This document shows positions 47,282 to 48,390 of a stretch of DNA of 50,884 bases, piece by piece. The DNA is from Acidobacteriota bacterium (lineage in GTDB: Bacteria; Actinomycetota; Acidimicrobiia; Acidimicrobiales; Ilumatobacteraceae). The DNA lies in assembly GCA_018969685.1 (NCBI GenBank), contig JAGWXX010000006.1, positions 1-50,884 on the forward strand, given 5' to 3'. A model generated the notes under the pieces. The model saw nothing but the letters and a program-made list of their open reading frames with translations, searched no databases and had not been told where the DNA came from. How positions within the stretch are numbered: the first letter of the stretch is position 1; each line of letters opens with the position of its first letter. A program made the position numbers and the translations under genes.

Positions 47282-47605
47282 GTGCCGAACCTCCCCCTCC
47301 CCTCCCGCATCGACCTCACGAAGGTCGACGTCCGTGCGATCGTGCCCGGCGCGCTCCGGAAGGTCCGGCTGCCGGACGTGGACGCCGACCGGGTGGTCGC
47401 CGCGGCGAAGGACGCCGGCTACACGGCGGTGGGCGCCGCGGTGCTCGCGTTCCAGCGCGCGCAGGTCCGCCGCCGCGGGATCGAGTCGTGGGTCGCACGC
47501 CACGTGCCGCAGGCCTCGGACGCGCTCGTGCGCGCGGGCGACGCGGCAGAGCAGGTCGTCGCAACGGTCGCCAAGGCCGTCCGCAGGGAGCCCGCCCAGA
47601 ACTAG
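47282..47605 (+). CDS. Hypothetical small protein
   Basis: 107-aa ORF with AAAGGA SD; stop TAG overlaps a -10 hexamer (47603-47608). Confidence 0.6.
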   Translation: MPNLPLPSRIDLTKVDVRAIVPGALRKVRLPDVDADRVVAAAKDAGYTAVGAAVLAFQRAQVRRRGIESWVARHVPQASDALVRAGDAAEQVVATVAKAVRREPAQN

Positions 47606-47608
47606 CCT
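47603..47608 (+). promoter_or_regulatory. -10 hexamer TAGCCT, N6 to ATG 47615
   Basis: TAGCCTcgctgcATG; leaderless geometry. Confidence 0.55.
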
Positions 47609-47614
47609 CGCTGC

Positions 47615-47644
47615 ATGCGACGGAGCCGGCGGCACGGGGCGTGA
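47615..47644 (+). CDS. Candidate leaderless leader peptide MRRSRRHGA
   Basis: 9-codon ORF whose TGA overlaps the methyltransferase GTG (GTGA); 6 nt after TAGCCT. Confidence 0.45.
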   Translation: MRRSRRHGA

Positions 47645-48390
47645 CCGAGTGGTGGCGCCCGGAGCACCTCGCAGAGGCCGAGCGCCGGTCGCGGGAGTCT
47701 GACCCCGACGCGACGACGGTCGAGAGCGACTTCGGCTCGTACCGGCGCATCGCCGCGGGTGGCGACCTCGTCGCATCGGGCCTCGCGCTGCACAACGACC
47801 TCGACCCCGGCACGAAGGTGGAGCTGGTGGCACGCCGCGCCGGCCTGATGCGCGGATCCGCGCCGTCGTCGGTGCTCGACGCGGGGTGCGGCGCCGGCTA
47901 CACCACGGCCGCCCTCGCCCGGCTCTTCCCCTCGGCACGGGTGACCGGCGTGGACATCTCGCACGACGCCGTGGCGTACGCCCGTGCGACCCATTCCGGC
48001 GCGGACTTCCGCGCAGAGGCGATCTCCCCGTCGTCGCCGCCCGAGGGGACGTTCGACGCCGTCTTCTGCTTCGAGTTCTACCCGTTCACGCGCAACGCCG
48101 ACGCCGCGGAGCAGGCCGGCTACCTGCGCGCATTCGCGTCGCGGCTCGCCCCCGGCGGGCGCATCGTCGTCTACCAGACGTGGCGCAACCCGAACTCGCT
48201 CGGCGCGGTCTACCGCGAGGTGCGCGCCGCGCTGCCCGACCTCGCGTTCCGCAAGCGCCTCACCGCGCACCCACGGCTCGCGGCTCGGCTGCCGATCGCG
48301 CTCGCGTGGGCGGCATCGTGGGCCGGGACCGTGCTCGCACGGCGCGACTGGCTGAAGCCGATCGTCGTCGTCACGAGGCGCGGCGGGTGA
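47641..48390 (+). CDS. SAM-dependent class I methyltransferase
   Basis: VLDAGCGAGYTTAALARLFPSARVTGVDIS, FDAVFCFEFYPF, LAPGGRIVVYQTW. Confidence 0.85.
   Translation: MTEWWRPEHLAEAERRSRESDPDATTVESDFGSYRRIAAGGDLVASGLALHNDLDPGTKVELVARRAGLMRGSAPSSVLDAGCGAGYTTAALARLFPSARVTGVDISHDAVAYARATHSGADFRAEAISPSSPPEGTFDAVFCFEFYPFTRNADAAEQAGYLRAFASRLAPGGRIVVYQTWRNPNSLGAVYREVRAALPDLAFRKRLTAHPRLAARLPIALAWAASWAGTVLARRDWLKPIVVVTRRGG

Follow-up and report, generated by a model that had tools for sequence, protein, structure and literature searches.

How translation of a methyltransferase gene is initiated when no SD sequence is well placed before its start codon is the question raised by a gene junction in the 50,884-nt stretch of DNA analyzed here (the window). 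The genome to which the window belongs comprises 1.96 Mb in 124 contigs, with 71.6% GC in the part read; its host is not a mycobacterium but a member of the Ilumatobacteraceae, i.e., of another class of Actinomycetota. The initial annotation had proposed that a nine-codon open reading frame (mini-ORF) just upstream of the methyltransferase gene is leaderless, is translationally coupled to that gene and may sense arginine. The coordinates it gave for the TAGCCT hexamer, the ATG, the TGA and the GTG were all found to be correct when the sequence was re-read, and the junction contains the following features.

47282..47605, + strand: gene for a 107-aa protein, with GTG start and TAG stop, kept in 23 of 23 genomes of the genus
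47603..47608, + strand: TAGCCT, predicted -10 element of a leaderless promoter, found in the same place and form in relatives
47615, + strand: predicted transcription start (+1), the A of the ATG
47615..47644, + strand: nine-codon mini-ORF MRRSRRHGA with its TGA, read from the sequence; counterpart VPRSSCQ in the related genome G021
47622..47625, + strand: GGAG, SD-like but weak, with 15 nt between it and the methyltransferase GTG
47641..47644, + strand: GTGA overlap of the mini-ORF TGA (47642-47644) and the methyltransferase GTG (47641-47643)
47641..48390, + strand: SAM-dependent class I methyltransferase (Methyltransf_25/11), 249 aa
48387..49649, + strand: MurJ-like flippase of 420 aa, overlapping the methyltransferase gene in a second GTGA (48387-48390)

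The stop codon of the 107-aa gene is thus the TAG of the TAGCCT hexamer (47603-47605), which is separated by a 6-nt spacer (CGCTGC) from the ATG at 47615-47617; the mini-ORF reads ATG CGA CGG AGC CGG CGG CAC GGG GCG TGA, and the gap between the 107-aa gene and the methyltransferase gene measures 35 bp.

The methyltransferase matches Pfam Methyltransf_25 (E 2.5e-18), and the local coding score is 125 in its frame and negative in the other five frames; our rough gene caller skipped the gene because this frame is open far upstream. In four homologues from the same genus, the start codons, which are GTG or ATG, fall a few residues before a conserved Trp-Trp (V-T-E-W-W-R-P in the window as compared to V-N-S-K-E-W-W-R-P in L006, M-S-K-Q-D-W-W-R-P in L007, M-S-D-N-D-W-W in L008 and M-A-E-N-D-W-W in L009), and there is no other ATG, GTG or TTG in the methyltransferase frame from 47603 to 47641. 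These homologues confirm the GTG at 47641 as the correct predicted start. A search of genome contigs recovered two close relatives of the methyltransferase, both already among the genome-search matches, and a search of viral contigs for further relatives recovered none. The strongest SD pairing before the start is that of the GGAG (-5.8 kcal/mol), and, with the best pairing at such a distance, the earlier statement that the gene has no well-placed SD is a fair one. In the predicted fold of the leader both the GTG and the GGAG are mostly paired, which would favor coupling, in a fold that is no stronger than expected from composition (z -0.79); no special RNA fold of the leader beyond composition was found. 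The leader region showed no Rfam match beyond chance or near a family's cut-off, and a riboswitch or other known RNA as the leader was therefore rejected. No terminator was found between the 107-aa gene and the methyltransferase gene.

In high-GC Actinobacteria, leaderless genes are marked by a TANNNT motif located approx. 12 bp ahead of the start codon (Zheng et al. 2011, PMC3160421). We counted RTG codons (i.e., ATG or GTG) behind this motif in 1.43 Mb of the window genome and found 170, 176 and 90 at spacings N6, N7 and N8 (i.e., with 6, 7 or 8 bases between hexamer and start codon), as compared to approx. 27 at each offset elsewhere; by coding score, three quarters of the RTG codons at N6-8 open genes. 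The best leaderless hexamer was TAGCCT, which had an RTG 5-9 nt downstream in 44 cases against 9 expected. Whole-genome counts of TAGNNT-N6-RTG as compared to TAGNNT-N13-RTG were 101 and 13 for the window genome, 128 and 21 for G021, and 113 and 37 for G013. The base at position -1 is C in 77% of the N6 leaderless starts of the window genome, and position 47614 is also a C; a C before the start is likewise preferred at mycobacterial transcription starts (PMC4633059). As a class, leaderless starts occur far beyond chance in the window genome. As TANNNT-N6/7-RTG is the dominant signature in the window and sister genomes, and a C is found at -1, these data support the proposal that 47615 is a putative leaderless start. 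A sigma-70 consensus scan of the locus found no promoter, which is expected because the leaderless signature has no -35 element.

Short ORFs in this position are another matter. Genome-wide, 36 ORFs of ≤50 codons were observed at N6-8 as compared to approx. 27 expected, and 13 short ORFs at N6-8 were coupled by RTGA to a gene as compared to 6.2 expected (P ~0.01); the neighboring offsets 5 and 9-10 were also raised for short or coupled ORFs. On these counts alone, support for a class of short leaderless ORFs is weak. One of the 13 coupled candidates, upstream of a TrkA-like gene (L172), is doubtful: an in-frame ATG shortly before the called start suggests that this start is wrong. When the leaders were shuffled, a coupled RTG at N6-8 arose in 1.7% of cases for the window and in 2.9% for G021. 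As a short ORF at leaderless spacing is not rare by chance, the single case at 47615 needs comparative support.

Such support was sought in the 23 genomes of the genus. In 21 of these, the 107-aa gene is followed directly by the flippase gene; only in the window genome and in G021 does the methyltransferase gene lie between the two. All 21 genomes without the methyltransferase at this place (L036-L049, L051-L057) have a flippase gene opened by TANNNT-N8-TTG. In nine of them the hexamer (TAACCT, TAACAT or TAATAT) uses the stop codon of the 107-aa gene, in two it is TAGTCT located just behind that stop, and in the remaining ten it is TAACCT inside the 3' end of the 107-aa gene, with the flippase start also inside that gene. 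The TTG codons are predicted near-leaderless starts, and it is unusual for TTG to be conserved at a leaderless start; L051 has a further in-frame ATG at the flippase start. In another genus (L160) the junction reads TAGCCTCGCTCGG-GTG, where the small gene likewise ends in the TAG. As read from these junctions, a predicted leaderless start occupies the junction of the 107-aa and flippase genes across the genus and beyond, while its sequence changes.

The sole relative with the same gene order as the window, G021, reads TAGTGT-CGTGCC-GTG CCG AGG AGC AGC TGT CAG TGA. Its mini-ORF thus has seven codons, as compared to nine in the window, and encodes a different peptide, and the leaders differ in length by 6 nt; the TGA nevertheless overlaps the methyltransferase GTG in the same manner (GTGA). 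The GTGA between methyltransferase and flippase is also present in G021, and the counterpart of the window GGAG is a GAGGAG located 9 nt before the methyltransferase GTG. As the two methyltransferases are 50% identical, the leader had ample time to change. Judged by this one relative, the architecture (i.e., RTG at N6, frame and GTGA) appears to be conserved although the peptide is not. The initial annotation had called for an alignment of ATG, TGA and Arg codons in relatives; G021 keeps the start position (as GTG), the frame and the TGA overlap, which supports predicted translational coupling, and does not keep the Arg codons (four of nine codons in the window, one of seven in G021).

The 107-aa protein can be detected in 115 of the 222 family genomes, and its gene adjoins that of a MurJ-like flippase in this genus; it weakly resembles CwsA (E 0.008, below the Pfam cut-off) and is possibly an envelope factor. 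The window's own flippase copy is too diverged to match Pfam MurJ, but 11 of 14 relatives do match (best 3e-7), so that "flippase" is a fair name for the window gene. Near its N-terminus this protein carries an LPEGT motif, of which PEGT is invariant in the 14 aligned relatives.

Two further coupled mini-ORFs in the window genome were compared among relatives. An EamA-like transporter gene (PF00892; L104:16088-17042, G000:C46) is preceded by TAGCGT-N8-GTG, three codons and a TGA that overlaps its ATG, and this locus has no evident SD. The four-codon peptide is VVVR in the window genome, VITL in G006, G007, G012, G018 and G020 (the G018 copy being known from the pattern search alone), VIAL in G016, and VMTQ in G001 and G013. 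When the 222 family genomes were searched, the pattern was found in 9 of the 23 genus genomes and in one genome of another genus, while the reversed control gave one match among the 23 genus genomes. In most other members of the genus, the EamA-like ATG lies directly 9 bases behind TAGCGT, without a mini-ORF. Among the four-codon ORFs the inner codons vary but start codon, length and overlap do not, as selection for ribosome handover would give. A photolyase-related (DPRP) gene (L119:15731-17268, G000:C61) is preceded by a leaderless coupled mini-ORF of 12 codons in the window genome, and in several relatives it starts directly leaderless. As its mini-ORF occurs in the window genome only, this gene was rejected as a conserved second example; it may represent the same kind of change, seen once.

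The arginine proposal, under which stalling at the Arg codons of MRRSRRHGA would adjust methyltransferase expression, draws on the high share of Arg codons noted above, one of them CGA. Arg is, however, common in random sequence of 72% GC, so that four Arg in eight codons is only mildly unusual (P 0.02-0.06), and G021 lacks a conserved run of Arg codons. Moreover, the mini-ORF runs straight into the methyltransferase gene, and thus no terminator or antiterminator can lie between them; no such element and no special sequestering structure was found. An arginine attenuator was rejected on these two grounds, and we regard arginine sensing in any form as very improbable. We know of no link between the methyltransferase-flippase pair and arginine. 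Even less probability, next to none, attaches to an assembly error in which the ATG would be the true methyltransferase start and a G would have been lost from the GGGG at 47636-47639. One extra base would indeed join both frames, but the independently assembled G021 shows the same frame relation and overlap, and the homologues start at the GTG position and not further upstream; a frameshift in the assembly was rejected for the first of these reasons.

The remaining alternatives accept the assembled sequence and differ in what they make of the promoter and of the mini-ORF. If the promoter is real and the mini-ORF incidental, the mRNA would have a 26-nt leader on which the GGAG helps 30S subunits to start directly at GTG 47641, and the RTG at +1 would reflect a preference of RNA polymerase or be left over from an ancestral leaderless start. 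The alignment of the GGAG with the well-placed GAGGAG of G021, which could serve the methyltransferase there without a mini-ORF, speaks for this possibility, as do the near-background number of short ORFs at leaderless spacing and the report that many 5'-terminal uAUGs of E. coli affect the downstream gene only slightly (PMC4965119). In the window, however, the GGAG is far from the GTG for a usual SD, and both are mostly paired in the predicted fold, even if that fold does not exceed what composition gives; G021 has kept the GTGA and the in-frame RTG despite the difference in leader length, and the EamA-like locus keeps the same architecture with no evident SD. Overall, an incidental mini-ORF appears unlikely to us. 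It is considerably less likely still that TAGCCT is no more than a stop codon plus chance and that the only mRNA to yield methyltransferase is that of the 107-aa gene, on which ribosomes would reinitiate after the TAG at 47603. The short gap without a terminator fits such a reading, and the ten genomes in which the flippase start lies inside the 107-aa gene indicate that read-through probably occurs as well. Yet no leaderless signature of the window genome is better than TAGCCT followed by an RTG at N6, and a -10-like element with a start at leaderless spacing is found at this junction genus-wide and in another genus with its sequence changed.

We therefore prefer, as the probable explanation, that the leaderless coupled mini-ORF is an initiation adaptor for the methyltransferase. 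The hexamer at 47603-47608 would act as the -10 element, and the mRNA would start at A47615 and hence open with AUG. A ribosome would initiate on this leaderless AUG, read nine codons, stop at the UGA and reinitiate on the overlapping methyltransferase GUG; the second GTGA would then pass ribosomes to the MurJ-like flippase. Read-through mRNA from the 107-aa gene probably also exists, because no terminator lies in between, and ribosomes ending at the TAG at 47603 could restart at ATG 47615. The position, frame and stop of the mini-ORF would matter under this mechanism, and the peptide would not; a constitutive initiation adaptor suffices for the methyltransferase-flippase pair. With regard to its origin, the methyltransferase gene probably came between the flippase gene and an ancestral leaderless start, which would still serve the flippase in the other members of the genus.

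It is tempting to extend this explanation to the Ilumatobacteraceae in general, where leaderless promoters would carry their start codon along, and where insertion of a gene or a change in distance would leave an RTGA-coupled mini-ORF of 4-12 codons that functions, regardless of its peptide, as a general initiation device and not as a regulatory peptide (with the methyltransferase, EamA-like and photolyase-related genes as examples). We offer this generalization tentatively, as a possibility that falls somewhat short of likely. The EamA-like locus, with its four different four-codon ORFs, constitutes a natural test of whether translation, and not the peptide, is selected. These cases also provide a warning that amino-acid-rich mini-peptides in GC-rich leaders should not be taken for sensors.

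The closest known systems are the leaderless small ORFs of M. tuberculosis and M. smegmatis whose stop shares an RTGA with the start of the following gene (Shell et al. 2015, PMC4633059). In M. tuberculosis, 23 of 220 leaderless small ORFs are coupled, and sometimes placement and coupling alone are conserved (PMC4633059). The window mini-ORF resembles these in being short, in having an RTG at the first base of the transcript (predicted here) and a TGA within the next RTG, and in that the linkage is conserved and the peptide is not. RNA-seq, Ribo-seq and mass spectrometry served to map the mycobacterial ORFs, whereas the present one is predicted from sequence, in another class and before unrelated genes. 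Thus, the device is already known in mycobacteria, and the window case shows its sequence characteristics in a new class of bacteria; among the papers searched for leaderless genes in Acidimicrobi-, nothing was found on such ORFs there. The comparative results, with position, frame and overlap kept and the peptide free to vary, would extend this type of coupled mini-ORF from mycobacteria to a further class of Actinomycetota.

Other known systems share single elements with the window locus. In mycobacteria, cysteine-rich leader ORFs with a regulatory role (Canestrari et al. 2020, cited in PMC9094748) are similar in that a short ORF rich in one amino acid lies upstream of a gene; in the window the amino acid is not kept, and no regulatory structure separates the ORF from the gene. 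TANNNT-led leaderless genes (PMC3160421) likewise have TANNNT approx. 12 bp before a start codon, but there the signal precedes the gene itself, while here it precedes the mini-ORF. AUGs at the 5' end of an mRNA, upstream of the normal start, can bind 70S ribosomes, with consequences for the downstream gene in some cases (Beck et al. 2016, PMC4965119). These E. coli uAUG ORFs are similar to the window mini-ORF in that an AUG at the mRNA 5' end is followed by a further start downstream, and removal of the ptrB uAUG strongly lowers downstream expression (PMC4965119); unlike the window transcript predicted here, the E. coli mRNAs have conventional SD sequences, and an RTGA overlap is not their defining property.
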